From NCBI GenBank assembly GCA_964036665.1, contig OZ038530.1, positions 15,819,001 through 15,883,000 on the forward strand: a stretch of DNA of 64,000 bases. The letters are read 5' to 3'. This stretch comes from Gordius sp. MW1. Its lineage: Eukaryota > Nematomorpha > Gordioida > Gordea > Gordiidae. Each line of letters starts with the position of its first letter. Position 1 is the stretch's first letter. The notes under the pieces are model-generated. The model had not been told where the DNA came from, searched no databases, and saw only the letters and a list, made by a program, of their open reading frames with translations. The position numbers and the translations under genes are program-made. This document shows, piece after piece, positions 9,803 to 35,367 of the stretch.

Positions 9803-12800
9803 TCAATTAAGGTAAAGGCCGTCGTCATCTTTAGCTTCTCCAGAGGTTGAAATAACCGTTTCATCCGTTGCCCCCGAAGTATTTGGATCGGTATAATTTA
9901 AAGAATCCTCAGTTTTTTTCTCATTTTTCAAGCATTTAGCTGAGGCCGGAATGTTGTTGACTACGGATAAATAAGGTTCAGGAGCCTCGAAGGGGGGAGC
10001 ATTGTAATCGTATATCGTTTCTTTTTGTTCAGTTGCCAGTTCGTCGATAACAGAAGTTACTAGGGCTGTTAAAGAGGAAAAATCGGGTCGTTGCGTTGGA
10101 TCTGGCAACCAACAAGACGTCATTATGGTGTATCTTTATTGTGTCAAAAGGGCAAATACATAATCAAGTAGCAACATATAGATTTAACTCATCGGTGTAG
10201 CTTAAAAAACATTTAATGCTCCTAATACTCACCAAGTATGAATATATAGTTAAAAAACAATAACTGATTTGCTCGAATATTTAGCACCCCCCCCCCCCAC
10301 GCCAATGTAGGTATTTAAAATTAAATTGCTCTAGATGATATAATGCCAAGTTAATAAATGTGTCATTATCGTTTAAAGGGCTTTTAAATAAATATCCCAT
10401 ATTTACTAGTATTCACCTTTGCTGTGCAAGTAATTTCATTATTGCAGTCAAAATTAACTAATAAAACGAGAGACGCGAACAATTTTGTTTGTCACGTCAT
10501 TGTCGATCTCAGTGCCTAAAAGCTCACGATAAAATATAACTCAAAATAATTTGTCCAAATTCCAATATTTAAAAAGTTTTATAAAAATTAGCTCTCGATT
10601 TTTAGAAAGTTTTACAATGAATCAGGGCAATAGAGGGGTTGTTGTAGGCGTCGACCGGCCCTGAGGTAATTGATGATATCCCAATTATCAACGTCTGGGT
10701 AGGGATTGACACCGCGGGTCATCAATTCCCATAGTACTATGCCGAAAGACCACTGCAACAAATAACAATACAAAATAAACTAGTAAAGCATACTAATTAA
10801 ACAAACATATTGCACATGTATATAGAAATCGTTTTTAAAGTTAGTCTATTCTTAAGCTGGTGAGGTTGTTTAAGATTTTAGAAAACTAAATAAGCATTCA
10901 TAGGCATATTTAATTAAAAATTATCGAAATATTCACGATATCATCATGAATAGTAAACCGATAATGTAATGCAAGTAAACACTAACTATTCCATGCACCA
11001 AGAACGGCATACTATTCTATTTTTTATATTAATCATAGTTTTTATTAACTGGATTTATATAAAATAAATGACCATACCCTTGTGATGATAAATATAGAAA
11101 AAAAACATAAAATAAGCATTAAAAGTGGAGTTTGTGAGCGAGAAGTCTATCGTATTACCTTCGTAAAGCCAAAATTCACTTTTATCAATTGAAAATAACT
11201 TTTATAAATAAGGTGATAACACAAAAACCAAGCACGTTGCATATTCAAAATTCTTTGTATAACAGTAACAAGTCACGCGATTATAAACGCAGAAGATTTA
11301 ATACTCTGTTACGAAAATAATACTCACGTGATTATAAAATGCAGACGATTCATACCCTTATTTTAAATCTAGTTTTAGACACTTCTTTTTCTTCTAACAT
11401 CTTTATCTTGTCTCAATACCTAGCTACTTTATTTAATTACTTATAACTTAATAAATCTTAACCTAAATTCAACAAGCACATATCTTACCACGTCTGTTTT
11501 AGAGTTGTAAACGTTTTTTTGCAAGCTTTCCAAAGCCATCCACTTCACGGGTAATTTTATGTTTTTATTCGAACTGGAGTAATAATCCTTCTCATAAATG
11601 TCGCGAGACAGCCCAAAATCTGACACCACGGCACGGTAGTCGGCATCCAACCTAAATTACATTACATTCTTGAAAGATTTTTAATAGATCAAAAAACTTG
11701 ATCTTTTCTTTTTCTAATATATCCTAAGGTTATTTTTGAAAAAAATTAATCATTACTATATCAAAAACATTTTTAAAATATAACGATTAAAATCATAGCC
11801 AATTACAAATTTTAAGCTTAAAATTTGTCTGCATGAACAAGCATTAAAAATCACTTAATGCTATTTTCTTTTTCATTGTTAACTTATGAATACTTTTATT
11901 ACCTGTTAGGTTTTAGCAAACTTGGTCGATAAAAACAAATACATGAACAATATTTTATTCTGTAGTCATTTTACTTAAACAATATTTATCCCTAAATTTA
12001 GGCAGTGATCCAATCTTTATTAAAAATTAAAATAAGGGTTAATTTTGTTGTTATCTTCGATCTAAACGACGAAAAAAACTTTTAATGCTCACCCAAACAA
12101 TTTTAGATGTGCTGAATTATTATCTTAGTGCGAATTTATTAAATATCGCCCATTGCACCGATAAATTTAATTATATATAAAAGAATAGACAAAATCCTAA
12201 TTTAAACTCACCGTTTAGAAATTTATTTACAATATAATATTAAAAAACGACCGAGTCAGAGCCATTTTCAAGCCTCTACTATCATAGACATACTAAATTT
12301 TTATAACTACGCTCCAAATTAAATGATAAACGAATCTCAAAGTGTAATTTTAAGAGCATTATAGGAAATAAAAAATAACCATAATTATTATAATTCAAGG
12401 ACATCATCGGATTAAAATAATATGAATTGATAAATAAAAAAATTGCATAGCAATTAATAAAATAATACAATTAAATGGAAATGATGTTATTAACTCCCTC
12501 TAATGCTACTGCTAACAAATCTCTTAAAAGTATTCTTAACGAGGGACAAAATTTAACTCAAAGTGTAATGTTAACCTCGAAAAACAAAACTCGTTTATTT
12601 ACATGCAATTCCTAGCGGCTAAATCTCGGTGCACAAATTTGAGGTTGGAGAGGTAGTCCATAGCTTGGGAAATATCCACAGCCCAATTTAGGAGATTTCC
12701 TATGGTAGGTTGTGTTTTAGGATTTCTCAAATGCGATAATAGATCGCCGTTCGGCATAAATGGCAAAATTACGAGTGGACTTTGGCCGGGCACCCATGTG

Positions 12801-14342
12801 ATTCCGATCAGAGACAGAACGTGGGGATGATTGAATTCTTTCATGCGAAGGCCCTCCTGCAAAAACGCTTTCAGCGATTCATTATCCGTGAAACAAGCTA
12901 AATCAATGTAATAACAAGATGTGCTTAATAATTCGTGCAAAAATTGTGTTCGGAGACATAGGTGTAGCCTGAGTAGGCACAACATCTGATCATATTTTAA
13001 AAAAATCTCATTAACCTACCATAAAATACAACCAAAAAATTTTCCCAGTCCCAAAATTAATCTCAATAAAGATCCAAGGACCAAGATCCGTCATTCCTTA
13101 ATCAATGAATATCGTTATTTTAGTGTCACCTAACAAATAAAAGTTATGGCTTTATTTAAGCAAATGCATACTTTTTATCAAAGTTCATCATGAACAATTT
13201 TATAATTATAGTTTTACGAATGAAATTTGAGCGCTGTATTATAAGGTTTGCAAAAAGAATTTTTTGTATAAATTTGGCACTTTGGAAAAGCTCTGAGCGT
13301 TATTAAGTCATAAAAATTTGACTTGTCGAGTAATAAAATTTTTTTTAGTCTTTTTAAATGCAACAGAAAAATTCAAATATAGAAATGTTTCTCCAAAAAA
13401 CTAAACATAATACCGATTCGCCTTAATCTTTAAAAAAACACGTGGAAGCGCAAATGCGATTTAAATCAAGACTATTATAGCCTAAACAACAAATATATAA
13501 ACACAAAAATTTTTAAAGCCCAAATGATGCGTCGTTAGAAAAGTCAAAAAAATCAAATGCTACCTAGATCTGCCTGCACACATCCAATTCTCAACATTCA
13601 ATAAATTTACCAGTTTTGTAAAAACTTACTATTTAGCGTCTTAACCGCTACGTCGATTTCAATTTTATCATTGCCCCGTTGATCATTTTCAGCTCCGACA
13701 GTAAGCGCGCCACGTTTCCAGTAGCCCCTGAAAACAATATTGACAAAATTCATACTTGTCATCCCACTAACTAGATCAAATAACTCGATTAATCTAAAAA
13801 TAAGTCGATTAACACGGTTTGAGATTAAGGGTTTTAATCAGTATTTTTGATAAAAAGATGCGCTGCCGTAGACCTCAACCTTATGACAAAGTGTTAAAAA
13901 ATCTAGCCTCAAATTTCTATTAGAAACGATTTTGACAAACTGATAATATAAAAAACCCTAAATCTCGCCTCAAATTTATATTAAAAACAATTTCAATGCC
14001 AAACTCCAAATTTTATATGCCGGTTGTTTTTGTGTTTTCAATGGATTATAGGGCAAGAATGATAAACTTTACTCATTGTTTTTTTGGGGCAATAATACCT
14101 GTAAACTCGTCCGAAATTGCCTTGGCCCAGCATGTGTCCTATGATTAATTCCTCTCGTGGAATCATAATGGAAGAAGGATCTGCTAGTAACAATGCAGTT
14201 TCGGGATCTAAATTTTCCATGCTAAAACATGGGACGCTCTCTTGTAGGCCAGAAGAGGTAGATGCTCCACTTCTTAAGGCATCAGTCTCCCCCTGATTAA
14301 GCGCTATCGTAGAGGGTGCGGGCATTCCGGTTGGTTGATAAT
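9803..14342 (-). other. Tyrosine kinase domain and tail exons of the MET-like receptor
   Basis: Six exons encode the juxtamembrane end, the kinase and the tail. The glycine loop is GQGNFGRV; the ATP-anchoring lysine is K1268 in DVAVK; the helix-C glutamate is probably E1286 (FLQEG); the catalytic loop is HRDLAARN with D1363; DFG has D1381; the activation loop has the paired tyrosines of KDYYSS (Y1393, Y1394), as in MET. All catalytic residues are present, so an active kinase is expected. The tail has a candidate docking site PYLSVVNN (Y1524) and ends in GLYLN. MET's tail has two adjacent docking tyrosines; only one comparable site plus the terminal YLN is visible here. Confidence 0.92.
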
Positions 14343-17300
14343 CTTGCGAAATATAAAAAGCAATTTAATGCGTGCGAGATGGTATGTATGCTAAAAATTA
14401 AGAATCTTGGGAATATTTGAGGACGGTTTAGTATGGCAAAAGTTGTATAAATTAAATTTATTTGAATGTGTATATTTCCAAAAGGTATAACAAAATATTT
14501 AGTTAATTTATTATGAAGAGACGATGGCAAAACTCGACATCAGTTTATTAACATTATAGCAGAGCTCAAAATTTTTCATTGACAAATATAACAAAATATT
14601 AGAATACATTAATTAATAATGCCGAATATTTAAGCGCCAGATATAAATAATTTTTAGTTTTTCAAAATTAAAATTTTAAACTCCACACCCAGCTTAACCC
14701 TCTACAGAATCTGACATAACTAATCTCTTTTTATTACGCTATAAAGTATTAAAGCTCATAATTTTTCTTTTCCAATCATAAATCAAAAAGGCGTAAATCC
14801 TAATGAATTAGGTTGGAACAAAATTTATAAGGGTGAAAAGTATCATTTAAATTTAAAATAACGAAAAGGGATGGCATAAGTATTATGATGACTTTCTAGA
14901 AGTATTAATAGCCAAATTTTGATTTATGTGGCTCACAACCCGATGATAAATATCAACGTAATGACAAATAAAATAATATACCTACAAAATTTAGCAAAAG
15001 TGAGATTTTTTTAAATTTTAATAAATAAATAATAATACAATTTTGGATAGTCCTTATCGAAGGGTACCGGTTAGCAAAATCGGTATCGTATCTCAAACCG
15101 AGCTCTGAGTAACGCATACCCGGCAATGACTGAGGCAGGTGTGGCTTTTTTAAACCTAATTTAAATTTTTTAAGAATAAAATAATCAAATTTACAAAACA
15201 CACATTTCGTTTAATAAATTTTATGTGAAGCTAAGTGGTAAACTTCCTAACCATTTATAATGATTTTGGCTAGTGTTGTAAAAATGGCTAGGTTTTGTTT
15301 GGTCGACGTTTGGTTCTATTCGACTAAACATAAACAGACGAAAGTTTTTTTAGTCTGTTCCTCTAGGGTTAATCGAAATTAGAAAAAAAAAGTTCTGAGT
15401 CAACCGTTAGTGTTAGTTGGACCAAAGATTGACCAAACAAACCTAGCCGTCTTTACAACATTGGCCGGACGTCATTCAGTTTTGCTGCCGTATGCCACTA
15501 CAACAATGTGCAAAATATTCTAAATTATTCCTAATTTTTTCATACATTTTAATGTTTTAAATCGCCGAATCACATAAAATGATTTAGTATGCTCAAGCTT
15601 ACAACTTTGAATTATAAACAAAATATGGCGAATTTTGAGTTGGTTTTAGGTAAATCAGAACATAACCAAAAATCTAGCTCATTAATAAAATTTTATTTCA
15701 TATCGGGTGCATTAAGTCACCGATTAAAGCTATTATACTCGTTGGTACATAAAACCACATCTTATAGTTGCAGGTTCTCATTAAAATTTCAATCATGACA
15801 AGTATAAATAAATTTTTGGACGATTTTTAGACGAAAGGCTAAATTGTCTTTTAAATTCGCAATATACATGTCAATAATAAGTAAATTTTTCATATAAAAA
15901 GGGGGGGGGGCGTTCATATAGGACGACGCAAAGTTATTTTTTGCCCCCTCCGAAGGAAACCTAGATCATATTAGTATAAAGTTGTCATTTTTATTTGTGC
16001 CTTTAGTTTTAGCCAACAGTAGGGTAACGGCTGGGTTTTGTTTGGTCGACCCTTGGTTTTAGTCGACTAAACAAAAATAGACCAGCGCTAAGAAAAACAA
16101 ATCAAGAAATCTTTGGTTTGGTGATGTTTAGTCGACCAAACTAAAACCAGCTGTTTTTACAACACTAGCTAATAATTATCCCAAATTGAAACACTTACGC
16201 CTAGCTCTACGCCTTTTTGTCCAAATGGCCAGCACTAAAAACAGGGCAAAAAAGACCAACAAAAGAATGGCCGCCAGTATGGCCCAAACAAAGTTGGATT
16301 TGATTGGTTCGGTGGAGTAAACCACGTGACCAAGGTGAAACTCGATTGGTCCCGCGAAAACGACGACGCCATATTTATCAAGACCCTCCCGCGTCTTGGG
16401 GCCGGGCGATGGAGCTTTCCTTTTGACTACGGATTTGCCCAAAGCAGCTGAGCCATCTACGATTATATTAATATGATTTAAGGTTACTATAGCATTTTTA
16501 ATAAGGCGGCTGTTCTCCTCTAAATCCAAAAATCCTTTAAAATTTAAAACAATTATGGCTTAAATTCCAAAGAATTATCATTTTGTCCCTCCCTAAATTA
16601 TAATTGCCCCCCTCTAAATGCAATCCTGGCTACGCTTATGACTAAAATCACATTCATGATTTTAGTAAAACACAAAATGGGATAACTTAGATATTTAAAT
16701 TATAAAACTAAACTTGAATGCTCAATTTGATGAATTATATTAAGGTTAAAACCCCCCAAAAAATATGACAAGTTATGTTGTAGATATATTTTTTTGGGAT
16801 GCAATTAGGGGGAATATGATGTTATTTATTTTAGATACAAGGAGTTAATTAAGGTAATAGGAGTGGTGCTAAAACCTTTCATTTTTATGAATTTCCCTTC
16901 TGGCAGCAATAAGAAAAATATAACATCCATCGCATGGTCACTTATTAAAAAATGTATTTGATTACCCGTTCACTTATTAATTGTTTTCAAATTAATATGC
17001 TCCTTTTATAATAAACCCTAATCTTATTTTATTTTTTAATTCTATAACATCTTAAGCCAAACGGATTAGTTCAACGCAATTTCAAATCGAGATTAAAGGC
17101 TGGCTATTATAATTATTTTTTAAAATGAGGCAATTTTAAAATAATAAATTATGACTCTGATAATATAACTTAGAATTCATCTAAGGTCTTTCCAAACTTT
17201 TCTATAAAGTTTGTATAATTTATCTCAATTATTTTAAAAATAGTGGCAATATATTAATACGCAAATTCAAGGAACTATATTTAGGCCTGACACGATTGGT

Positions 17301-20300
17301 TGATAGGTCGGTTATTAAAGTCGTCTGGTTCGCGAAGTTCAAATTTGGTTGGTTGGGAAAACGTGGAGGAATACACGTGACATACGTAGACGCCATCTTG
17401 ACTATTTCGCATATGCTAGAGCCTATCATAATTTTAACATCTTTTTTGGTATGGACCAAATCTATCTTACTACCCTGCAAAATTTAAAAAAAAATAATGT
17501 AATCCAAAAATTATATAAAGATAAAAGAAGTTCAAAGGCGTTTTCGTCACTTTTTAATATCACGAAATAACATTTTATAATAAAGGCCTGTATCATTAGC
17601 CCGGCCTATGTCAATGTGCTCTTATGTCAAGCTCATCTAATCGTATCCACACATATAACTACATTAAGCACCCAAGAGTTAAAACATTAAAAATAATAGC
17701 TTAAATCAATAATAAGTTGCTCTAAAAATCATCAGTTGTGATAGAATCTAATTCAAAAACGATCATTCGATTTAGGTCCACCAACTCTTATATAAAGAGC
17801 TATTTTAGTTAAACAGATATATACATGCCAAAATTTTTGAGGTTTCCATATTTTAACCTTAATTTCCAACATTTGCGTGTCGGGGTTGAGGTAGATAGTG
17901 TCTTTGGGGAACGGATAATACACTGGGTCTGGGTAAAAACTATAAGCATCGCTGTAAGCCATAACTCCAAACAAGTTTACTAATACCCGAGCCGTTATTA
18001 AAGGGGCCGTGGGAGGAAGTCGGCCATTTTGAATGGTTATTTTGGTGAAATTTGGTGCGCGACAAAAATAAAGCCCTCCTTGGGTTAGTGTAGAAGGCGT
18101 ACAATCTGCTATACTAATTTGCAAAGCTATAACATTTTTGCTCGATTTCTTTTGAGGCATTAGGTCTTGTGTCGTTAGTAGGGGGTGGAAAGTGATGTAA
18201 GCCCGGCTGGCTAAACTTTTATCCATGCCCCGGCATCTCAGAGTTAGTATGGAGCCTCCACTGTAAAGCGATGTACAAAAATAATTTGGCAGTTAATGAT
18301 AGCTTCTATAATCAAAAGGGTACAGCTGCTCACCCATCAATAAAATGGTTTTATTTTGTTGAATATTAATTTTCATAAAAATGTGGTCAAACGACGCATT
18401 TTATTTAAATATGATTTTATGCATAGTATAGAAAAGTTTACAGTTGTTATGATATAAAGATTTGAGGAAATTAATTTATAAATACTATTTATCTGTCAGC
18501 CCATTTCAAGCAACCACACATGCTTTTGGCATGATGTGTCTCTTTAAAACTTTAATTAATATAATACTATAATTTCCACTTTTAAAATTCAAGGCAATTT
18601 AAGTAGCAAAAGATACAGATAGATGTAGTCAAACAACCAAACATAATGTTGAATATTACCTCATAATGCTTTGTTTGGGTTCGATGGATTGTACGCTAGG
18701 GTTGGGTTTAAGCACAAAATCCGGTTTCAAAATGCTAGTATAACCGTCGATGTGAATGCTTATCTTTAGCAACATCCAATTACTTGGTTGGTCATCTTGG
18801 GTCGATGCAGGAGTGGATAAATCGTTCAAAATAGAGGGTTTGTAAGGTTGGGTCACGCAACTCAAGTTTTCCCTATTTCTGCTATAAATGGTAAAAAAGG
18901 CTAACACGGGAGTAGCCAGAATCGGATCTAAAGGGGGGCAATAATAATTTAGGGAGGGGCAAATGATATTTTTTGTAATTTCAGCCATACTTATATAAGG
19001 TTTAAAAGAATTTTTGATTTTAGAGGGGAATAGTTGCCCCTCCCTACCACCCCCTGGCTAAGCCCCTAAAGGCAAAATAGTTACATAAGTTAGGTCTCAG
19101 AAGTCATTTATGTATATAAAAACATACTAATCTAAATATGTGCATGCGTTTTGAATAAAAAAATCAGATATCAAATGTTATCTATCGAGTGGAATAAAAA
19201 TAATGAGTTATTTACAATTCTGTATTTAGTAAAGAAATCGATAAGGAGAGAACATAAAACAGGTTTAAATATTTCGGACCACTGGAGCCAATCAATGAAG
19301 ACAAAATGCAAATTCAACCTAGACGAATTGCCAACAGAAATTTATATATAAAGGTAATCAGTCGAGCATAAAAACAATGATGGAATTTGGGCTCGCATGT
19401 CGAAAAAATTAAAGCCAACCAGCGGTCATTAACTAGTTCATTGGCGAAAGCAAAATAAAAGTCTTTTACAGAAGCGTAGGTTAAGTCCACAGCCATTATT
19501 AAACCCCTTATAAGTTTCCACGGCAATTATTGAAAAATTACAAGTTGGACAGGACGGACGGACAAATAAAAACCAACACATAAATTGCATAGCGATGAAA
19601 AAGTGGGAGATGCTATTAAAGCAAATACGGGTGAAGATAATGACACGTTTTAATAAATTACATTTCATCGCACCTTCAAATGGTATCTATTCAAACATTT
19701 GTAACAATCATTTAAATATATGAATGAATCACATGTCAAAATGACTTTCTCATGACAAAATGGGTATTCAACCTATGGCGGACATGGTTACCGAAAATCG
19801 GCTAAGGTGGTATGGGCATATACTAAGAAGAGACACGAATGACTTAAATGAAAAAGTACTGGACATTGAGGTACCGGGAAAAAGAGGAAGAGGACGACCT
19901 CGTGTCACGTGGAAAGGGGAAGTCGATTAAGTAATAAAAACAAAAGAGACTAGTCAAGACATGGCACTCACCCGGTCAAGATGGAAGAAACTCATCAAAA
20001 CAAACCCCACGACTCTGGGACCAAATAACTGATAAAGAATAAGAGAAAAATCACATTGTCAATATAATTCATAAAAGCTCAAAACACCCGTCAAATCCAT
20101 CGGGCCCATTAAATGGCAGAATAGATTTTTCAACTTTAACATATTTAAACTAACATGGATATTATCAAGTGCATACAATAAGGGAAAATATTCTAGACCA
20201 CAGGTTTATGTAAGAATTTGGCAATACATGGTTATTTACCAAGTAATATCACATAGTGGCCATATGCTTAAATGGAAAATATAACTTTAGATACTCCATA

Positions 20301-23300
20301 AATTTTGCATTGATTTAGGTGTCACCATTGAAATTTATTTAAATAGGTATAAAGACTCAATAACAATTGAGGGTGGATATTTTAATAAAGCAATAATAAT
20401 GTTGTCTAAAACATTGAGTCAACAATTAAATAGTTTCATGAAAACCCATATAAGAACATGAAAATGATACGAGTTTATGTTACGAATAATAAATAACAAT
20501 TTCAAAATAAAAATTTATTTAAACGCAAAACTCTCGCAAGAAGGACTTTAACAATCATTTATTCAATGCATAGATAAACCCCTATAAAACAAAAAAATTA
20601 ATTACAATTATTAACTAATTGATCGTATACTATCAGCTTTTTACTATATAATGTCACATTGTAGCGAACTGCCAATTTGAACCGAAGCACGGGAGCCAGC
20701 ATCTAAATATTGCCCCTTCACGATAATCTCATTTTTTCCGGAATATATACCGAAGTCGGGCTCGTAACTATCTATCCGAACGTTCTGTTAAGGAATATAA
20801 TAAAAATAATTACAAAATACACATAGGTAACATAAACCATATTAACAAGATGCAAAACTTTATATAGGCTTATTTAGCCATTTTTTATCCGGAATTTTAT
20901 AATAAATCATCATATTAAAGGATATCATTATATAAATCACAAAATAAATATAATTATAATTTATCTCGACCCAAAATTGCTGAAAAATAAGTTTTAAGAA
21001 TGCCAAATCTCCTTTTTGCACATTGTAAAAGGCAAATTTATAAAAATTCGCATTTTTGAAACTTAATCATAAGGGTAATGTAAATTTTCAAAATTTGTTC
21101 ATAATTAATAAATTTCAAAAACTCGGTAGGTAAAAGAGGTAGGGGCTTTGGCTAAGCCAGAGATCATAAAACCAAAATTCTTTCTAGTTCGGTCTATAAC
21201 TTCCACTGATAAGGTGCTCGATAATCCATCGTAATTATGGCCCCGAGGCGTTTTCATCAAAATCCTATTATTACATTAAATAATAGAAAATTGGAGGCGA
21301 AACTTGTAACTACATAGCAAAATTTGTTACAATATTGGATATTATAGTTCAAATTTTAAAAAAATATCGTTATCCCTATTAGTGTTTGAAAAACAGGCTA
21401 ATTTCTATGTCTAAGGGTCGACTTTGGTCAGTATTTCAAATTCCGACTAAGCCTACAGGTCTACTAAGATAAACAGACCAACTTTGTCTGTTTATGTCAA
21501 ACTAAAGGTTGCACATAATAGACTCAGCCGTTTTTAAAACACAATTTAATAGTAATTGTCGGATTCAAAGCGTGTAAACGTTAAACACAAATTTGGAAGC
21601 AGCCAAAATATGGGATAAATTTGGCTCGCATTAAAACGTCTAGTTATTTAAATTTGCAAGCGGAATTACTATCAAACAATGTTAAAAGTGGCAAAAAGGT
21701 TAAAATTCTTAGTTCCACAAATAAAAACTCTTATTATCTCAATTAAAAGAAGAGAAGGTTCCATAAAAACGTGTGTTGTTTAATAAAAGCCAGGGTAAAA
21801 AAGTAGACCTCCGCATAGTGGCATTCACAAGGTCACACTTCCTACCACCCAATAATATGTTGTAGGTCGAGCTATGTTGTTCCCCGAAGTAATCACCCTC
21901 TATGATAACCGTCGTTCCGCCTTCCATGGGACCACTCGATGGACTTATCTGGTAATAAATGAGAAAAGAGTAGTGTAAATAATTATCCAAATATTGTTGC
22001 CCGCATTAGATCTTTACATTTCTCATCTACTGCAACAGTATTAATCAGCCCTTGTATCTAAACAAATGACTAGTAGTTTTATTTAAAATCCTCGTAAGAA
22101 TAATTTTATTACAGCTATACATATTAAGTCATTATATATATATATGCCTATCCTTACAAAAATGATTTATAAATTGAGAAATGGTTCTTTTAATAGACGA
22201 TAATCCAGCATCTTTTTATTTTTAAGCCTCGCTGCAAACCCTGCTTAAGCATTATTACAAGGTCGAGTTCGTAATAAGTTGTAAAACTTTTTGCATTTTA
22301 ATCATTCATAAAGTTTCATCCCGACGCAATGCAAAACTAAATACGTTTAATTCGAGAAACAAATATATCCATTTACACATATAATACCTTCAAAAGCTTT
22401 CGCTAATAACAGTAGTTAAATTAACCCATGCTAAAAAAATAAATAAAAACTGTCGCAAAAGTAGTGTTTCAAAACGCCATTATAAAAAGCTACTTTGGTA
22501 ATGAGAGGAAAGCAATGGGACTGAGTCCAAGCATTGAGCGGACATTCGGATTTTGCCGTACACGAATCGGTGTGAGAGCACCAACCACAAGCCAAGGGGT
22601 CTTGTGGACCACTCTTTAAGCAATCTCCACACGTTTCGTACAGAGAACACGAATTCATGGGCATTATAAAGAGCTGTCCCAAAAATAATGGATGAATATC
22701 AATGTTAAATGGTTGTACAATATTAGTATATCCTAGGGCTTGTCTTAATATCGGATTCAGATTCAAAATGCGCGAATTTATCTTTGCCTAAATATCCGAT
22801 TCAATTTCATGGGTCAAACTAGGTTGTAATTATGAACATTTTGTTCTTTGATAATTAAAAACACCTTTTTGTTTATTTCAACTCTTGAGATTAAATCCAA
22901 ACTTTGCCGATACTTAAAAATTTAGAAACATACAACATTTAAGTTTAGGAAAAATTTTGCATCTTACAAAATCGCTGTTGTGTTATGCGTCTGAAATGTG
23001 AGTCTGCTGTGAATTCGAAGTTAAGACACGGCTATGCTATGTATGACCCGCACAACAATTTTTGCTGCGCAACAAAATCCGATATTAAGACATGCCTTAT
23101 CTATTAATTTTAACAAAAAAAGGTATTTTAATAAAAAAAAGAAAAAAAAGTAGTAACAAATATAGCAATAAATACTTTATTGAGTGCCAAAAAGTAGAGA
23201 TAATTGTGATCGGGTGAAAATGCGTTGGAAGACTTGATAGAACGATCGAAAGCTGGAATGTCTTGAGAGGTTGTCCCTTTAAAAACATCTTTCCAACCTT

Positions 23301-26300
23301 GAGCAAACACGTCTGAGCTGTACAAGGATACTTTCCTTTGAGATTCCAACAAGACCTTATATGTGCCAGCAAAAAAAAAACCCATGTAAAAAAACAGTCG
23401 GTCGTATAAAGTATAAAACATGTCTAACATAGTCATATTGTTGCATTAGATTTATTTAAATAGGTGCTTGAAAAGTTTTAAAAGTTGCCAAATTATAGGG
23501 GCAGAGAAGAACCATTTGTTTTCGTGTATCTAAAGAGTGTTCAAAATATTCCTGAGTCTTACAGTTTTATAAACAAGCTAAGTACTTTTCATTGAACGTT
23601 ATTATTCAACCATAAATATTACTATGATTCGTCATTTGCATTCACATCTTTTAAAAACCTTCCTATTTGAGTCAATAACATGTAAGTTCAAAAAGCCGCA
23701 TTCCTTTTATAACTAAGAAACTTATATATAGGTCCCAGTAGATATAACAAGCAATTTAGGATGCTAAAGGAGCTCATGATATTCCCAAACTCTAAATAGC
23801 TAAAATTTGGTTGTTTTAAAAGACAAACATCTTATAGAATGAGGACGTAATATTTAAACTTCAATACGCGTATATTGTTGTATTATCATTTTCATTATTT
23901 AAGTTTATGTTTTACAATTCAATATCAATTATAAAAACGGCCTCAAAAATTGTATGCCAGTTTTGCAACGCCTTGGGGTCTCAGGGACCCCACGCGACCC
24001 ACGGAGTGTTACATAAAAATTACACGAAATTTAGTTTTTCACCTTATGGGCAAATCCATCGCGAGTTCCTAAGAAGGCCAGTACATTGGATTTTCCATTG
24101 GCAGTGTAATTGTGAACGGCAAGGGAAGTAATGATTGATTCGAATCGATGCACGGAATGGGCAAATAAATCAACGTCCGTTTCTATGGGAAAATTCAGCG
24201 ATGAGCCGCAGTACGAGTCAGTTATCGTTTTATTCTGTGAACAATGGGGGCCACAAACTCAAATATACTTTAAAGATTATTATATTCCAATTTATTTTAG
24301 ATTTTTCTGCAAATCTTTAACTGCCGTGGGAGGAAGAGCATTTTTCAAATATTTAGAAACGAAGTAGAGCCCATAGGCGTAGCCAGCATTGGAATTAAAG
24401 GGGGTCAATAATGATTTAGGGAAGGGCAATCGTACATTTTTTGAAATCTTTGCCGTAATTTTAATAAATTTCAACAAATTTTCAGATATAGAGAGAAGCA
24501 ACCGCCCCTCCTTGCCCCCTCCCCGGCTATGCCCATGGTATAGCTTACTCAAAGCAGTAAAATAATGTTTTCTAAAACTATCACTATCTAGATGTTTTTT
24601 TTTGGATTGAGTAATAGTAAATTCAGAATATGTGTGAATGTGACTGAGTGAATTGTCATGTTTACAATTTTTTATATATTAAAGAGTCAGTAAACAAATA
24701 CCAAGGATTAAAAGAAATTCTATAAACTTCATTCATATCTCATAAAAAATTAACGTGTCCTCGAATTAAAATTCTCTTGTTCATAATATCAGATCGTACA
24801 ATAATTTACAAAAAGATGGGCGTATTGAATATTTAACGAAATTATGATTTACATTAAAAAATCACTATTTTTCCACTACTAAATTTTTTACCCTACCCCC
24901 CTTCAAATCATGTTAAGCTCATATATGACACTGTAAAGTCAGTAGCCGGTTAATAAGTAAATAGTTTATCAAAATATTAAAGACATTTTGCAATTGAGGA
25001 AAACTGGCTTACACTTTTTAAAAGGACAGGAACAACTTATATCAAAAACAAGCATTTCACAAACACCACAAACAGTGCGGACAAAATTCACTTATAAAAA
25101 AATGGTGTTAATTTTTTAATCTGATTTTAATGCGAGTAGTACCATAATATTAAGGAAAGAGAATCAAGTATTTGCTACACAAAATATAAAAAAAAAATGG
25201 TGGGCATAGCTTTTTTAGCAATATACGTTTAGCGCTCATAGTGTCCTTACTATTAAAGCCGAAGTAACTAAAGGTTTTTATCTATAAAATAACAAGGCGA
25301 GCCATATTTACATAAAGGTCCATAAAAGACATACATATAAAAATAAGAAAAAAAACAAAATTAAATAATGCTAAACCAATCACATCATAAAACCACCCAA
25401 ACTGAGGCTAAAATTTCGGCTAAAGAACTAAAATACGTTTTAAAATCCAAGCAATTCGACAAAAGTTTTACACACGACTCTAAAACATTTTTTCTCAACG
25501 CCCATATAAAATCATAAGACGAGCCATATACAAAACGTACATAAAAGACATACATAGGAATTAACAAGAAAAAACAAAATTAAAAATGCTAAGCCAATCA
25601 CATCATAAAACCACTCAAACTGACGCTAAAATTTAACTAAAATACAATTAAAAACGAGTGTAATTCGACAGCAGTCTAACTCACGGCTCTAACACATTTT
25701 TCCTTAACGCCCACGATGTAAGGTATATGATCGCCTATGCCGTCGTAACACCTCTGAACGGCCTCCCTAAAACTCGATATGATATCGGCGATAGGATAAA
25801 TGCAGAGGGTAGAGCCTAGGGATTCGTTCGGTACGTCTAGGTGAAAATTTGGGTAACTGCTCGTCATGGACACGTACAATGCCATACCACCACCAGCACC
25901 CACTTTAGTAGTGTAATCGGCTTGGTAGGGTCCTGATTTATAACAACAAAGTAAATATAAATTAGAAGAACTGCACGGGCGACCCGAGACCCGACCCGAC
26001 CGTCGAAATTTTAAAATGCTTTCGGGTTGGGTCAGGTTCGGGTTGAAAATTTTAAAATGCTTTCGGGTCGGGTCGGGTTGAATAATTAAAAATGCCTTCG
26101 GGTCGGGTTTGTGTTGAAAAAAAATGACTTTGCAGTTCTCTAATACTAGTATATACATGGGCGTAGTCAATCCCCTCTAAATCCAAAAATCTGTTAAAAT
26201 TATGGTTAATATTTCAAAAATGATCATTTTGCCCCTCCCGAAGTCGTTATTGCCCCCCCCCCTAATTCCAATGCTGGCTACGCCCATGAATATATTTAGG

Positions 26301-28856
26301 TGTAAACTGCAAAAAACTTACTGGGAATTAAATTAAAATTGTTGTACCTAAATAAATAAAATGAAGCAAAAATTTCCAATTAATAACGCTGTAAAAGATA
26401 GAGAAATATTTTGGTGTAAAAATGGGTAAATTAATTCATTTCTCGGGCCTTCAATAAGGCTAACAAAAACATTAGGTACAGCGAGCATTATTTTTCAACT
26501 AAAAGAATCATATAAAAGTAAGTTTATGGTTGATTCAAAAAGGTAGAGTTTGATTTTAGCTAGGATTTGGATTAGAGAGGGCGTAAAACATAATAATGGG
26601 AATAATGAATTTTTAAAATTTATAGGGATGATAGTAATGGAATCAGAGATCAAATAAGCACGGCTTGCCGCCAGGCCCATGGGCCACGCCGGGTAACTGC
26701 CGCAAATTTAAACGTTCGGGCGGGCCCGAGCGGACACCATCACAAGATTCGGCAATTCAAGTTCAATGATATTTTTTAAAAATATACTATTTACCTTTTA
26801 ATTTGATTTCATGATTTATAAGAGATTTCTTCACAAGGGCATGAGAGCCCTCCAATGCTCCTGCGAATAAATCACTTAAAATATTCTTTAAGAGGCAAAA
26901 TCTTTCTAATCTGATTTTATGATATTTGTCAATCCTAGTTCTTATACAAATATATTGGAAATTTAAATTAAAAAAATATAACAATTTTACTGCTAAAAAT
27001 TTAAAAAACATCATTCCGGGCGGGGCAGTTCTAATAGTTGGGGCATGGCCGGACGGGCACTTAAAAAGGTTTGGGCGGGTAGTCTAGGTGTAGAATAGGA
27101 CGGGGCCGGGCTCGGGCGGAAAAATTTTACCAAATCTGATCTCTGATTGGAATACATCATTTTTTAAAATCGAGGAGGGGGGGAGCTGCCCTATCCGATT
27201 TCTCGATTTTAAGGTAGTTTAGAAATTACCAATGGGGGTTGTGTTAAATTTCCCAAAAATGCAAAAAATTAAGAAAGAATGCAAAATCAAGGTATCATCG
27301 ATAGTTTTAATTGAAATCATGTCATTTAAAAATGAGTAATGATTAAAAAATATTACCAAAAAAAGCTGTTTGGGCGATGTTGTATTCGAATTGGTCGGGG
27401 GAACTGAAACATGTGATGGGTACTTCTGTGTAAGAAAAGAAACTCAAGTCCTCCTGGCACACCCTCACTATTCGGGTTTGGAATGTTTTATCAGGAGAAT
27501 TATTGATGGAATTATTCTAGATGATAATTTAATAACAAAATTTTGTCATAACTTAGATAGAATGGGTTAACATATAGTATATGAATAACTTTAAATTTTT
27601 ATATCAACAGTTTATTACAAACCCAACATTCATAATAAGAAATATTAGTCAAGACAATTGCTTCACTAATTTTAAGTAACCCTTGCCAAACTAGAAATTA
27701 TCTTTAATAACAAAAATCTATGGAGTATTTTACCCAATTAAGCCTGACTACAAAAGGATAAAAATTTATTAGAAATTTTAGGGGATTATTTTACTGAGCT
27801 TAAAACAACAGCTAAGTTTGGCAAAAATTCAAATAAAGCCTCATTATAGAGCTAAAAATCTTCTAAAGATATTATGAAGGCAAAAATACACAAATTCCAC
27901 TAGATAAAATATTTAGTAAAAAGAATACCAAATTATACTATTATTTAATGATAAAATAGGCTAAAATTTGTGAACTACATTTAACACTACAATGTAAAAA
28001 CATATTATAAAAGCTCTTAAATTACTTGTAATGTTAAAAAGTAACTAAATCCTTGATAATCAAACCCGTATAAATATTTGATTAGAATATTTCTTTGATA
28101 ATGTGGTGCTACATTAATTCCAGTAAAAGACACACCATCATCATATGTATATGCAAAATCAAATTGTGACTTTTTTAAAGTATTAAAAGTTTGACTAGTG
28201 TATTGAGAATATTTAAAAGCTTCTCGTCTGCTTGATAAAGAAAGAGGTGAAAAATTGTTTGGTCTATCAGGATCATATGTGTAGCCAACATAGAGGACTT
28301 GAGAATTTTTAACAGGAGATAAAATTGAGGGCCCTGGAGCAAAAAATGCATAGGAACTTTTATTGGATGAAAAAATATTTTCAGGCTTTGAATCTAAAAA
28401 GATGTGATCATTTAAATCTGATAAACTATGTATTGAACATTTCAACCCTAATCCTCTGTAGTATTTTATTCCACATGCTAAGAGATATCCACCATTATTG
28501 TAGGATATAATTAAAAAATTTATTTTTTCTTCATTGTTTTGTTTAAATTTAAGTAAAGAGGATGCATCAATTTTTTGATTGTTTAAATTTTGTTGACTTG
28601 AATAATCAAAATCTTGATATTTTTGTGTTAAATTTAAATATTGTTTTGATTGGTCTAATACTGTTTTTATATAATCATATTTTATATAGAAGATTTTTCC
28701 TGATCCCCCTCCTCCAATAAAAATGTCACCATGGAACTTGTTAACATCAATTTTAAAAAGTTCTACATCTAACGTTATATATTTATAACATTCATATGGG
28801 CAAATAATGGTTATAAATACAGGAATAAAAAATATACAAGGTAAAAAGGCATTCAT
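9803..28856 (-). CDS. MET/RON-family receptor tyrosine kinase (complete, 20 exons)
   Basis: A single-pass receptor that should phosphorylate itself and recruit signalling adaptors when its extracellular Sema/PSI/IPT part binds a ligand. Exons: 28856-28026, 27516-27357, 25932-25685, 24234-24043, 23355-23176, 22673-22494, 21948-21809, 21264-21123, 20784-20645, 18881-18660, 18260-17858, 17474-17294, 16534-16199, 15155-15039, 14342-14099, 13727-13630, 12897-12603, 11651-11489, 10752-10616, 10133-9803. All junctions are GT-AG and all phases close, giving 4740 nt (1579 residues). Order: signal peptide 1-21, Sema to about 540, PSI about 544-590, IPT repeats about 598-1006, helix 1088-1111, kinase about 1225-1500, tail. 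MET-family marks are [23 protein letters not shown] and [12 protein letters not shown]. Human MET has about 1390 residues, so this one is longer, mainly outside the kinase. Weakest donors: 21123, 17294 and 15039. Orthology to MET versus RON is not resolved. Confidence 0.9.
15274..15460. mobile_element. MITE, GTTGTAAAAA/GGTCGAC family, copy 1
   Basis: Inverted ends: GTTGTAAAAATGGCTAGG with GGTCGAC inside at the left, and CCTAGCCGTCTTTACAAC at the right. About 190 bp, no coding capacity, lying in a receptor intron. Other copies are near 16021, 21385, 36990, 38838 and 40544, so this is a locally abundant family. Confidence 0.7.
16021..16165. mobile_element. MITE, GTTGTAAAAA/GGTCGAC family, copy 2
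   Basis: GGCTGGGTTTTGTTTGGTCG at the left and TCGACCAAAC followed by CAGCTGTTTTTACAAC at the right. It sits about 35 bp from the donor of the receptor's transmembrane exon, so it lies at the very start of that intron. Confidence 0.7.
16199..16534 (-). other. Transmembrane exon of the MET-like receptor
   Basis: This exon carries the membrane-proximal stalk, one hydrophobic helix (about residues 1088-1111, [20 protein letters not shown] and onward) and a basic stop-transfer TKRRRARR. The stalk contains a dibasic run, [14 protein letters not shown]. The donor GTAAGT at 16198 is strong. The acceptor at 16535 lies inside a short repeat also present at five other places in the window, so the first codons (FLDLEE) seem to be repeat-derived; see findings. 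Confidence 0.8.
16512..16641 (-). mobile_element. MITE, GGGCGTAGCC family, truncated copy overlapping a coding exon
   Basis: Matches the family seen at 26156-26290 and 35569-35735: CCTCTAAATCCAAAAATC, then AATTATGGCTTAA, ATTATCATTTTG, and CTGGCTACGC at the right end. The left terminus is missing. The remaining left part runs into the receptor's transmembrane exon and includes its splice acceptor. Confidence 0.7.
18912..19066 (+). mobile_element. MITE, GGGCGTAGCC family, copy in receptor intron
   Basis: The inverse orientation of the family: AGCCAGAATCGGATCTAAAG, GGGGGGCAATAATAATTTAG and a right end CCCCCTGGCTAAGCCCC. It begins about 30 bp upstream of the acceptor of the IPT exon 18881-18660. 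The open frame running into it from that exon is not coding. Confidence 0.65.
19367..19600 (-). repeat. Dispersed interspersed repeat (copy 2)
   Basis: Second copy of the repeat at 5505-5715, sharing AAGTCCACAGCCATTA, TATAAGTTTCCACGGCAATT and the terminal CATAAATTGCATAGC. It lies within a receptor intron. Confidence 0.6.
19736..20040 (+). pseudogene. 3' end of a non-LTR retrotransposon ORF2, copy 1
   Basis: The plus strand reads [14 protein letters not shown] followed by [12 protein letters not shown] and then, after a stop, [11 protein letters not shown]. This is the conserved C-terminal tail of many non-LTR reverse transcriptase polyproteins. It is 5'-truncated and broken, and ends in ACTGATAAAGAATAAGAG. 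Related fragments lie at 44093-44400 and 49130-49235 with the same 3' text and orientation, all antisense to the host gene. Confidence 0.7.
21385..21542. mobile_element. MITE, GGTCGAC family, diverged copy
   Basis: Contains GGGTCGACTTTGGTCAG, the internal AGACCAACTTTGTCTGTTTATG and the end GACTCAGCCGTTTTTAAAAC. It matches the family at 15274 and 36990 but is more eroded. It lies in the intron between two IPT exons. Confidence 0.5.
22494..22673 (-). other. PSI domain exon of the MET-like receptor
   Basis: One 60-codon exon completes the Sema domain and encodes the cysteine-rich PSI domain: [18 protein letters not shown], then further cysteines in SCTAKSEC and SHC. The spacing and the CGWC signature match PSI domains of MET, RON, plexins and semaphorins. 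Acceptor GGGACAG and donor AAA/GTAGCT are both in phase 0. Confidence 0.9.
24368..24538 (+). mobile_element. MITE, GGGCGTAGCC family, copy with both ends
   Basis: Left end CATAGGCGTAGCCAGCATTG and right end CCCCGGCTATGCCCATG form inverted termini around GTCAATAATGATTTAGGGAA and GCAACCGCCCCTCC. About 170 bp, non-coding, in a receptor intron. Confidence 0.7.
25978..26131 (-). repeat. Tandem repeat of about 42 bp built on CGGGTCGGGT
   Basis: About three units of TTTTAAAATGCTTTCGGG followed by TCGGGTCGGGTTGA. The same phrase, on the opposite strand (ACCCGACCCGAAAGCGTTTT), forms an array at 55036-55205. It creates an open frame that runs into the Sema exon 25932-25685 but is intronic. Confidence 0.7.
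26156..26290 (-). mobile_element. MITE, GGGCGTAGCC family, nearly intact copy
   Basis: Left end CATGGGCGTAGTC, then CCCCTCTAAATCCAAAAATC, ATCATTTTGCCCCTCCC and TAATTCCAATGCTGG, right end GGCTACGCCCATG. It is the best reference within the window for the copy that overlaps the transmembrane exon. Confidence 0.75.
26640..27135. mobile_element. Transposon-like element with GC-rich ends
   Basis: Outer inverted phrases AATCAGAGATCA (left) and GATCTCTGATT (right) enclose GC-rich subterminal blocks (CCCATGGGCCACGCCGGG, GGGCGGGCCCGAGCGG on the left; GGACGGGGCCGGGCTCGGGC on the right) and an AT-rich core. The left subterminal block resembles 7680-7720. No coding capacity. Confidence 0.45.
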
Positions 28857-29821: not shown

Positions 29822-30364
29822 CTAATGGAAGAATTTCAATTTAAAAAAAGTAGCAAGCATATTGCTGTAGCTCGCCTTTTCCATGGCACGAGAGGTGTCC
29901 AGCGCAATTTGCCATGTCAAATTTTCTATGCCTAAAAGGCGTTCAACAATCTTTGTTTTCTTTAATCCAGCTACAAACCTATCACGGAGGCTACTTTCAA
30001 GGTTCGATCCGAATTCGCAATGGATTGCCACCCCCTTTAATCTTGCTGTAAATGCATCGATGGTTTCATCATCCATTTGGGACAACTTATTAAATTTGTA
30101 GCGTTGTACGATTGGGTTTAATTTGGGAGAATAAAAGTTTTTTAGGGCTAAACATAATTCTTCAAAAGGAAGGTTTGCAGGGTTCTGGGGGGCAATAAGG
30201 TTTGTAAGTAATTCGAAATTTTCGGTACCTATAACGGATAGAAATAAGGATTTTTTATCGCAACCGATAACATTGTGAAAATGGTTGAATTGTGACAAGT
30301 ATAAGTCAAAACTATCGGTAGGACTATATTGATGGAATTGTATATTGGAATTCGACCGCGCCAT
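29822..30364 (-). pseudogene. Retrotransposon gag remnant
   Basis: A 180-residue frame with the look of Gypsy/Metaviridae-like gag: SFDLYLSQFNHFHNVIG, KSLFLSVIGTENFELL, FEELCLALKNFYSPK, ETIDAFTARLKGVAIHCEFG and LRDRFVAGLKKTKIVERLLG are the usual conserved helices in order. The zinc knuckle and everything downstream (protease, reverse transcriptase) are missing, so it is a 3'-truncated fragment. It lies about 1 kb upstream of the receptor start codon. Confidence 0.75.
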
Positions 30365-30500
30365 ATTTTATGGCGTAATAAAATGCGTAAGAAAGGGAAA
30401 AAATCCAAGAATCCATTTATGCGATAATTTGGTAATATATAGGAAAAAGCGTGGGAATAATAATGTACTTACTTACAATAATGAATGCGAACTCAAATCA

Positions 30501-32283: not shown

Positions 32284-32929
32284 TTAAATACTGTTTTCAT
32301 CACAAGTTGTTGGATTGACATTAACCTTGAAGTCACAAATTTGTCGTTTATTATTGAACAAAGTGTTCCAGGGGCAGAGTAAAAACACCAATTTTCCGTT
32401 GTCGCATTTCGAGAATTTCACACACCCCGATGATATATCTCCTAGAATATGAAGAAAAAAAATCATACTAATTTTTAAAACATTTGAAAATTTTATAAAT
32501 CTATAGAAAATTTTTAGGATAGTAAACCTTTCATGTTTCTATTGACATCACATACCACATCGCAAGCTACATCGGTTTCCCAATTGCATATTCCTGATTT
32601 GGAATCAAATTTTGTTAATGTAGGACACATTCTGAGGACATTAGTATTGTCACATACAAAATATGATCTACAACCGTCTATTTGATTAGGATATAATCCA
32701 GGGGTTTTCTCTTTGCAAAATAAATCTGCAAGTCCGTATCCACTCGTGGGTTGAATATTTATTGGAGGAATTATAGTAGGTTTTGGTTGTAATTTTATGG
32801 GCGCCTTGCCTTTTTTAAATTTGGTTTGCAGTAATTTGAGGATTTGTTCCCTAGTTATTGGTTCGGGGTTGGTTGAAATCAGAAAGCAGAGACATAATGT
32901 TATAAGAATTAGGAGCCGATCTACAAAAC
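32284..32929 (-). CDS. Secreted protein with two chitin-binding type-2 (CBM14) domains, first exon missing
   Basis: Two exons, 32929-32528 and 32441-32284, join in phase (AAAG/GTTTAC donor, TTCTAG/GA acceptor) and end at TAA. The first begins with a hydrophobic run (RLLILITLCLCFLIST), the core of a signal peptide, whose start codon must lie in an undetected upstream exon, because the frame enters in phase 1 after a CTTAG acceptor. CBM14 domain 1 reads LFCKEKTPGLYP, GCRSYFVC, CPTLTKFD, GICNWETDVAC. Domain 2 reads GCVKFSKCDNGK, CPWNTLFNNKRQIC, VNPTTC. The six-cysteine pattern with C-P-x-x-x-x-F fits the peritrophin/obstructor class, which binds chitin in cuticle or gut lining. The short linker is rich in K, P and I. 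Confidence 0.82.
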
Positions 32930-35367
32930 CTAAGGATCGAACTTTATTAAATTCGGTTTAAAAAAATAATATTTATTATAAAGATAATTTAAAATCAAGT
33001 TAAATGTTGGCAGATTTAAAAATAGTATGAAAGTTAGGTGTGCTAATCAACAAATATAGCGGAACTTATTAAAGCAATGTTTAAATTGCTAAATTTGATT
33101 AATTTATAAACCTTCAAAAAAAATAGATTAAACTCTCTATATTTTAAAAATATTATCCATTACAAGAATATTTAGTAAATTATAAAGACATTATTAATTT
33201 TTTAATCATAAAATTATCTTTAAAAATTACTTGGCATGATGATGCGAAAAATATAAAGTCGTGAAGATCAGACTATCGAAATCACTTAATAAAGGGTCAT
33301 TTGGTACCTAATAGTTAAACTTCATCTATTTAAATTTTTTGTACAAAACAGTTTTGAACATTCAAATAGATTTTTAATCTTATTTTGTTAGTAATTTTTT
33401 TAATTATTATTTAATACAAACCAACAGCAGCTTGACAAAGGTCAATACATAATCAAATTTTTATCCAAGCACGGAAAAGTTAGCCAAAGTTTTATTTGAT
33501 AACGTAGTAAAATTTCCAAATAATAAAGGAAAGCTCTACGAAACTTTTAATACTATGACCCGAAGACGCAATTTAAATTAAACTCGAATACAAATATTAA
33601 CCTAAAGTCCCCCTCTTCAAAAACAAAATATTTGATAGATGAGAAATTTGCAAAACCCAGCAGAACAAGCAAAATAAAATTAAAGTAGAAATTGTTTTGA
33701 ACGATTTATTATCAAAAATGCGTAGGAAGGTATTGAAAAATCTATTTTAAACCCAAACCTTAATCCTATTTCAAATTTTTACATAAAACCCAATACCTTT
33801 AACCAAACCCTATTTGGTGGTTCAAGCGCCGATGCCAACAGAGTTACACAAATTTTCCAATAAAGATTTATAATATAATTATTTATGCATATCAATTGGC
33901 AAATAAATGGCTTGCAAAAGTGAAGGGAGGGAAAACTGAGTGGAATAAGAAACTAAACGCTAAGTCAAATTTGGCTTTAGTTTATAAAAAAACAACTTAT
34001 AGGTTTAAAAACAGAATTTCATCAATATTATGCACATCTTCCTAATATTTTGAGAGACGTCCTATTGTCGAAAAATCAATATTAGAGCTTTTTTCGAATC
34101 TGGTGCATTTCGTAATATGTGCATTTCGTAATAAGTAATACATATTATCAAATAAATCACTAAATCTAACCCTTGCCTATATTACATTTTGCCTAGATTA
34201 CATTAAATTTACAAAATAAACGATAATAATATTTACAAAATAAAAGATAATAATATTAGAAAACTTAACGCGGAGGGTTATAACTGCGCATGCGCATAAG
34301 CAATTCTTGCCTCTATTACGAAATGCACATATTACGATTTGCACAGAAGTGTTTTTTTTCCCGAAGATTGTTGAGCAAAGGTAAAAAACCAAGATCCTTT
34401 TATGGTCTAGAATTAGCAACTTTCAATTAAAAAATAGATTTATATTTTCAAATTTATTAAACAACATATAAAGTGCTTTGGCTCGCACTTTTATTAAATC
34501 TTATTCGATATGAACGATGATTCAATTCACAGTAAAATTCAGACCTCCAGGCTTTAGCTGTCGGGTGACTCATAAGATAATTGAATAAATTTAAGTTATC
34601 TATTTAAAGTTAAATTGTTAAAATTTTTATGTCCACTCGAAGGTTTTAAACATTATAACACAATAAATCTACAATTTTTCTGAAAACAAGTTATAATAAA
34701 ATAAAAGATAGGACGATCCCAATTGTTTTTACTTAAACTTATGATAACAAACTATATTACTATAATATTTATTCAATATCACTCAATCATTTATTTCTTA
34801 CTTTATATAATTCCATTTATTTATCAAATTAGAATATTTCGATAATGCCCAATAGAGTCCATTAGCGCGACGTATGATAATTATATTTAGCGAAAGTTAA
34901 ACGCGAAAAAACGCGAGCAAGAAATATTAATTACTTTGCGAACAAAGAAACTATTAATTCTCTAGTACGATCATCCACGCATGACCTGCCATGCCAGCGC
35001 AGCTGGCATTAGTAGTACGCGTATAATAAAGCGAGGAGAGAGAGATGGGGGGAGGAGACGTGTATGGTATACTGCACAGCAATGAGAGACTGTGTTTAAT
35101 AGACAACCACGACATTTTCTAAACATTACAAAATTTCATAGACAGCTAAACATAATTTATATAGACGATATTTATACATGCTCATACAAAATTGGTTAAA
35201 AAAATATATACATTTTTTAATACACGGTTGTTATAGCAACTATTTCATAAACTATAAACATAAATAGCGTAATAATTTATACGTAAATTAAATAAGCATA
35301 AAAGTATTATTTCTGAGATCGCGTCAAATAAATGTTTTAAAAATCATAGCGATGTAGCGTCTACGTC
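32930..35367. other. Intergenic region between the chitin-binding gene and KNL1
   Basis: The missing first exon and promoter of the chitin-binding gene should lie here, but a short exon with an ATG and phase-1 donor cannot be singled out. A local duplication (TTTACAAAATAAACGATAATAA and its neighbour) is at about 34205-34260. Nothing else was supported. Confidence 0.4.

Follow-up and report, generated by a model that had tools for sequence, protein, structure and literature searches.

In receptors of the MET family, the ligand-bound Sema-PSI portion pairs two receptors, paired tyrosines become phosphorylated and the tail recruits adaptors. Human MET, the receptor of HGF (PDB 7mo7 chain E), consists of a Sema domain, one PSI domain, four IPT domains, one helix and a kinase with a YY activation loop, and RON (MST1R) has the same architecture; furin cleavage of Sema into alpha and beta chains and tandem docking tyrosines in the tail are features of vertebrate MET and RON. 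The AXL, MER and TYRO3 (TAM) kinases have ectodomains of Ig and FN3 domains. A 2019 survey of Sema proteins describes Met from an annelid and a mollusc, in both with a single PSI and four IPT domains, and also from starfish, lancelet and human; it further describes the Met-LP receptors, in which a complete plexin ectodomain is combined with a kinase, and which are reported to have arisen twice (PMC6374515). According to that survey, no Met was detectable in Ecdysozoa, sampled there as C. elegans, Drosophila and a centipede, and the loss may lie in the line leading to them (PMC6374515). C. elegans SVH-2, compared here by its description, has nevertheless been published as a Met-like receptor tyrosine kinase and c-Met homologue, the receptor of the HGF-like SVH-1 (PMC5161311, PMC11305532), yet the survey lists no Met in this nematode. 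Nematomorpha, the hairworms, are the sister phylum of Nematoda (PMC11603191). Among the open-access titles and abstract openings listed, none names MET in a hairworm, nor in any ecdysozoan except C. elegans. A preliminary description of the present locus had introduced MET/RON as a family best known in vertebrates that the standard ecdysozoan models lack, a picture that is too narrow in view of the annelid, mollusc, starfish and lancelet genes and that SVH-2 further qualifies.

The predicted gene described here very probably specifies a receptor tyrosine kinase of the MET family; it looks intact and would have come down to a gordiid hairworm by vertical inheritance. It runs on the minus strand from 28856 to 9803 of the window, that is, of the whole 64,000-nucleotide stretch analysed, within a contig of 24.1 Mb, and comprises 20 exons between an ATG at 28856 and a stop codon at 9805-9803. 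The model was assembled from stop-to-stop open stretches, the sequence itself and Pfam matches of single ORFs, which exceeded their cut-offs for kinase, PSI and IPT and fell short for Sema, the exons then being joined and their frame and splice letters checked. All joins are GT-AG, and the joined frame is free of stops (1564 codons in the version analysed, whose numbering is used below; introns of 338 to 1763 bases). At 18 of the 19 junctions, one donor/acceptor pair was picked from homology and splice context by the analyst's judgement, and for some of these an alternative pair no more than 15 bases away also preserves the frame. The start, stop, exon count, GT-AG borders and open frame given in the preliminary description therefore stand, while its 1579 residues are one of several lengths allowed by the remaining junction.

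The ectodomain is encoded by the first 13 exons. Exon 1 (28026..28856, residues 1-277, ending in phase 0) contributes the start, a signal-peptide-like hydrophobic stretch directly after the ATG and the N-terminal half of Sema; its ORF alone gave no Pfam Sema match, and its residues 25-277 align with MET Sema at a score of 85, compared with 33.6 (sd 4.7) for shuffled sequences, none of 1000 being as high. A Methyltransf_15 match in this exon (E 0.0044, below its cut-off) is taken as spurious because this part of the exon aligns with Sema. The domain continues through exons 2 (27357..27516, 278-330), 3 (25685..25932, 331-413) and 4 (24043..24234, 414-477) and ends in exon 5 (23176..23355, 478-537); exons 2, 3 and 5 are collinear with plexin-A2 and MET and have GT-AG borders, and the ORF of exon 4 gives a Pfam Sema match (E 5.6e-4, 20.3 bits) that lies below the cut-off of 23.7 by itself and above it on the joined protein. 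Exon 6 (22494..22673, 538-597) encodes PSI, matched by Pfam at 9.9e-7 on the single ORF, and IPT1 is divided between exon 7 (21809..21948, 598-643; Pfam TIG 4.6e-8 on the ORF; weak donor GTCTAC) and exon 8 (21123..21264, 644-691; placed by frame and MET alignment; weak donor GTTTTT). IPT2 begins in exon 9 (20645..20784, 692-737) and ends in exon 10 (18660..18881, 738-811), which is collinear with MET and also starts IPT3. Exon 11 (17858..18260, 812-946) holds IPT3 and the start of IPT4, its end MLEIK joining GSKID where MET reads VLEIKGNDID, and exon 12 (17261..17474, 947-1017; candidate 3' ends 17261, 17276, 17292 and 17294) holds IPT4. Exon 13 (16199..16456, alternative 5' end 16534, strong donor GTAAGT) encodes the remainder of the ectodomain and a transmembrane helix at 1072-1096, which forms the second strong hydropathy peak of the protein (3.4).

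The cytoplasmic part follows in seven exons, beginning with the juxtamembrane exon 14 (15039..15155), which is considered separately below. Exon 15 (14099..14342, 1143-1223) covers further juxtamembrane sequence and the glycine loop of the kinase, exon 16 (13630..13727, 1224-1256) the catalytic lysine in VAVK, exon 17 (12603..12897, 1257-1354; Pfam kinase 3.9e-25 on the single ORF) the kinase from helix C on, exon 18 (11489..11651, 1355-1409) the DFG motif and the paired activation-loop tyrosines 1378/1379, exon 19 (10616..10752, 1410-1454) the C-lobe, and exon 20 (9803..10133) the kinase end and a C-terminal tail that contains YLSV and finishes in YLN. The catalytic residues are kept, and one marginal hydropathy window (1.61) lies within the kinase.

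On the joined protein, Pfam matches PK_Tyr_Ser-Thr (5.4e-85), TIG (4.1e-24), Sema (1.5e-8) and PSI (2.7e-5), all above the curated cut-offs, with one Sema, one PSI and three TIG stretches. The order from signal peptide through Sema, PSI, four IPT domains and a single transmembrane helix to the tyrosine kinase is collinear with human MET from end to end, the fourth IPT domain resting on alignment, in which the blocks set against MET IPT1 (with PSI), IPT2, IPT3 and IPT4 each outscored every one of 1000 shuffles (z between 6.5 and 29.9). Each receptor block was compared with the matching human MET block and with 1000 shuffles per block; z was 11.0 for the N-terminal and 12.5 for the C-terminal half of Sema, 29.9 for PSI-IPT1, 8.3 for IPT2, 6.5 for IPT3 and 14.3 for IPT4, and no shuffle scored as high. 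Judged from the Pfam scores and these six ectodomain blocks, a chance origin of the domain matches is excluded. The claim that Sema, PSI and IPT domains stand outside and a MET-type kinase with a YY pair and all catalytic residues inside is hence borne out. By their description (PMC6374515), Capitella and Aplysia Met have the same set of Sema, PSI, four IPT domains and kinase.

The kinase was compared with PDB sequences, of which 911 distinct ones matched at E 1e-20, and the ranking was drawn from the best 60 of these 911. EGFR (9p9u) tops this ranking at 344.9 bits, but the chain carries two kinase copies of 171 bits each; among chains with one kinase copy, the order within the best 60 is MET (290 bits), RON (272), MER (242), AXL (235), TYRO3 (230), ROS (219) and IGF1R (206), with identities of 53% to MET, 50% to RON and 49% to MER. 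RON thus comes second in the kinase, and it is below MET in the ectodomain score as well. A tree of 13 rows was built from human MET, RON, MER, AXL and ROS1 (PDB-checked), EGFR (PDB), TYRO3, IGF1R, FGFR1, three other hairworm kinases and the query. Because several rows of this tree have long branches, a seven-row tree was made that omits TYRO3, FGFR1, EGFR and every hairworm kinase except the query. In both trees the query groups with MET and RON, with support of 83/96 in the larger and 88/89 in the smaller tree, neither starred. Forcing it beside the TAM (AXL/MER) group is 9.7 and 3.9 log-likelihood units worse for 13 and 7 rows, with p-AU values of 0.062 and 0.105, and the kinase tree alone therefore does not settle the MET placement, which it favours without proving. 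The Pfam scan of the joined protein contains no Ig or FN3 domain of the AXL/MER/TYRO3 type, and the Sema-PSI-IPT ectodomain speaks against TAM membership, since TAM ectodomains have Ig and FN3. The assignment to the MET/RON type, for which a kinase phylogeny had been proposed as a check, is accordingly backed by the architecture, the kinase ranking and the end-to-end collinearity, and the best trees agree with it, the AXL/MER side remaining unrejected.

The ectodomain ranks differently from the kinase. With the best PDB row taken for each protein, it scores 153.5 bits with plexin-A2, 151.2 with plexin-A4, 148.4 with plexin A isoform A and 145.7 with plexin-A1, ahead of MET (126.8) and RON (67.2). 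This order is expected if human MET evolved faster, and also if a plexin-type ectodomain was separately fused to a kinase. The latter would make the hairworm receptor the product of an event like that of the Met-LPs: somewhere along the ecdysozoan or nematoid lineage, a plexin-type ectodomain would have been joined to a MET/TAM-like kinase, convergently with MET. The unrejected position of the kinase next to TAM and the reported twofold origin of Met-LPs (PMC6374515) would suit such a fusion. The ectodomain, however, is truncated as in MET, with one PSI and four IPT domains in place of the complete plexin set of Met-LP as described (PMC6374515), Pfam giving a single PSI stretch on the joined protein; the kinase itself is nearest MET/RON, and the juxtamembrane exon has the place and phases of its human MET counterpart. 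Nor was a plexin cytoplasmic RasGAP domain among the eight families of the Pfam scan, a kinase standing in its stead. We consider an independent fusion improbable, and shared descent with MET is the reading followed below.

The juxtamembrane exon deserves separate consideration. Hairworm exon 14 is 117 nt long, has phase 1 at both ends and starts 8 residues past the final tryptophan of the helix (9 in human). Splice variants place the borders of human MET exon 14 at c.2888 and c.3028 (PMC8515048). The former falls on base 2 of codon 963 and the latter on base 1 of codon 1010, which gives phase 1 at both ends. By its place and both phases, the hairworm exon is suggestive of a counterpart of human exon 14, and not stronger than suggestive, because both phases alone would agree by chance in about 1/9 of cases and the encoded protein is not alike (juxtamembrane comparison with MET: z 0.5, 297 of 1000 shuffles as high).

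Several short elements of human MET differ in the hairworm receptor. Human MET has a KRKKR stretch in Sema, presumably the furin site, where the hairworm alignment has a gap; the sole R-x-K/R-R match in the hairworm receptor is at 1101, behind the helix, and exon 13 contributes a KRK at 1029-1031. Since the furin site is missing from Sema, the hairworm receptor is probably not cut there. The juxtamembrane DYR of human MET, which we take to be its Cbl site, was not found by eye in the juxtamembrane part of the hairworm protein. The tails show no likeness (z -0.8, 824 of 1000 shuffles as high), and in place of the YVHV...YVNV docking pair of MET the hairworm tail has YLSV and the terminal YLN, the latter presumably fitting the GRB2-type pYxN rule. 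By analogy with the known family, the Sema-PSI-four-IPT ectodomain would bind an extracellular ligand and so pair two receptors, tyrosines 1378/1379 would be phosphorylated in trans, and the phosphorylated tail may recruit SH2 adaptors.

The junction between exons 12 and 13 is the one at which the length of the protein varies. In the searched range, 29 donor/acceptor pairs keep the frame open, yielding 1515 to 1598 residues. Scored with a small splice-site matrix built from the other 18 introns, 17261/16534 ranks first (9.94, 1590 aa) and 17294/16534 second (9.74, 1579 aa), and 17261/16456, the pair behind the 1564-residue version used for the analyses, ranks sixth (5.91). Acceptor 16534 has the best matrix score of the listed acceptors, yet it lies inside a copy of a dispersed repeat (16513..16633, minus strand, intron 12) and was for this reason not adopted; it could be real, as an exonised repeat. 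By blastn, the intron 12 copy matches five other places in the window, three of the matches extending across the position of the acceptor; the window copies lie at 16513-16633, 18912-19030, 24372-24506, 26171-26283, 35637-35728 and 45717-45806 and are 75-85% identical to one another. In the genome, 1947 candidate places of the repeat were counted and 40 scored, the intron 12 copy among them. Some copies have TGGGCGTAGCC-like ends when viewed by eye. The junction lies between IPT4 and the helix, so the domain assignment is unaffected by its choice.

This stretch, with its several options at a repeat, is where a fragment of a Sema receptor gene and an adjoining kinase gene might have been read as one. 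We hold that to be very improbable, given a signal peptide at the start only, a single helix, the lack of an intervening stop, IPT4 reaching into exon 12 with the helix in exon 13, and collinearity with MET throughout. A decaying pseudogene or an assembly or contamination artefact, to which the weak donors of introns 7 and 8 might point, is likewise very improbable, in view of 1564 codons without a stop, retained catalytic residues, a dispersed repeat of the genome's own within one intron and a locus on a 24.1 Mb contig.

The host was judged from the mitochondrial contig to be a gordiid hairworm (Nematomorpha, Ecdysozoa). The genome comprises 211.8 Mb in 12 contigs, of which C9-C12 hold 1.5 Mb and the other eight 210.3 Mb; in Gordionus sp. 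RMFG-2023, n = 5 (PMC11371463). Contig C12 (14,798 bases) reads as a mitochondrial genome under the invertebrate code, its genes being named by eye from the translations. Inverted repeats, the longest measuring 108 bases and the long ones mostly perfect, lie within its nad1, atp6, nad5, nad2 and nad6. The scale of such repeats in coding sequence is described as exceptional in Nematomorpha, with shorter ones of up to 60 bases in a gastrotrich; those in atp6, nad1 and two in nad5 occupy the same places in each of the four nematomorph species studied (PMC6649704). Excluding atp8, the rRNA genes, trnR, trnE, trnC and trnI, which were not placed with certainty, and with some of the 29 tRNA calls spurious, the gene order reads cox1, cox2, trnK, trnD, atp6, cox3, trnG, nad3, trnA, trnN, trnS, nad4l, nad4, trnH, nad5, trnF; then trnW, nad2 and trnM on the other strand, trnQ, trnY, trnT, trnP reversed, nad6, cytb and trnS; and finally trnL reversed, trnV reversed, and nad1 and trnL reversed. 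This order matches that published for Parachordodes, Gordionus and Gordius (PMC10380579). Genome searches with nematode cuticle collagen (PF01484) and arthropod cuticle protein (PF00379) were negative, as they were in all 14 control genomes, and so carry no weight in identifying the animal. Between nad1 and cox1 (L035:3640-4076) lies a tandem repeat reading ...PYYYLTITLL... in three forward frames and flanked by inverted copies, perhaps the control region. A moulting animal had been proposed from a chitin-binding ORF in the window; the mitochondrial contig agrees with the proposal, and the ORF itself (32517-32957, minus strand; CBM_14, E 1.8e-8; a signal-like stretch near the start by eye) proves nothing in this respect. 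CBM_14 domains occur in many phyla. Another ORF of the window, at 29822-30367 on the minus strand, about 1 kb upstream of the receptor start, is retrotransposon gag-like (E 1.4e-4, 22.4 bits, below the cut-off of 24.1).

The runner-up among long genomic matches to the kinase is 43% identical across 176 residues, with shorter exon pieces elsewhere of up to 56% over 52 (94 candidates, 56 matches); no near copy of the hairworm MET kinase was seen among them, and on these matches a diverged second MET-like kinase could still exist. Summed tblastn scores on fragments were used to set seventeen further hairworm kinase loci against eight kinases, the margins being 4 to 28 bits for the loci topped by MET or RON. 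The top kinase was FGFR1 at six loci (L002, L003, L004, L016, L022, L023), ROS1 at three (L009, L012, L020), IGF1R at three (L010, L021, L030), AXL at two (L018, L024), RON at two (L026, L028) and MET at one (L031, 175 versus 168 for hairworm MET). One of the two RON-topped loci is a ROR-like gene, and the comparison is therefore too noisy to place loci. Two arrangements were observed in passing. One is a single open frame of 1838 codons at C1:22409952-22414424 (L002, L003, L005) with five tandem tyrosine-kinase-like domains, an unusual architecture, in which by eye the first and last domains keep HRDLA and DFG and the middle three are without DFG, one of them also without HRD. The other, at C8:25424284-25459966, consists of several kinase exon matches of near-equal score, spread over 36 kb and both strands, and suggests that kinase genes were duplicated there.

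Searching the genome with Pfam Sema yielded a single match, L001, which by eye resembles a semaphorin carrying PSI and Ig; the search did not list the hairworm MET gene itself and is therefore unusable for counting Sema genes. The only kringle match in the genome, from a six-frame search that is blind to introns (control, 0/14 genomes), lies inside the ROR-like gene: a kringle half (L041, C2:20674781-20674906, minus strand) belongs to an apparent ROR receptor, in which by eye Frizzled-type residues precede the kringle and pieces of a helix and a kinase come after it, the kinase exon matches following at C2:20672361-20671263. The kringle was accordingly not taken to indicate an HGF-like ligand.

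The receptor is thus of a known protein kind, found in a clade in which the survey literature holds MET to be lost. That the gene is informative on the timing of the family's loss was a sound point: finding a full-length MET in Nematomorpha, sister to the nematodes, speaks against a loss in the ecdysozoan stem, and MET was probably lost later and in fewer branches than the survey held. If the hairworm gene is orthologous, a complete receptor was still present in the last common ancestor of moulting animals, MET disappeared wholly or partly in arthropods and nematodes independently, and the axon-regeneration receptor SVH-2 of C. elegans may be a reduced MET orthologue. More tentatively, and with more doubt than confidence, we suggest that the hairworm keeps an ancestral protostome MET with a skippable phase 1-1 exon that predates the protostome/deuterostome split, that this receptor works without an HGF-type kringle ligand, and that nematode SVH-2 is a cut-down descendant of such a gene. 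Were this so, the exon whose skipping occurs in human lung cancers would be older than the split between protostomes and deuterostomes.
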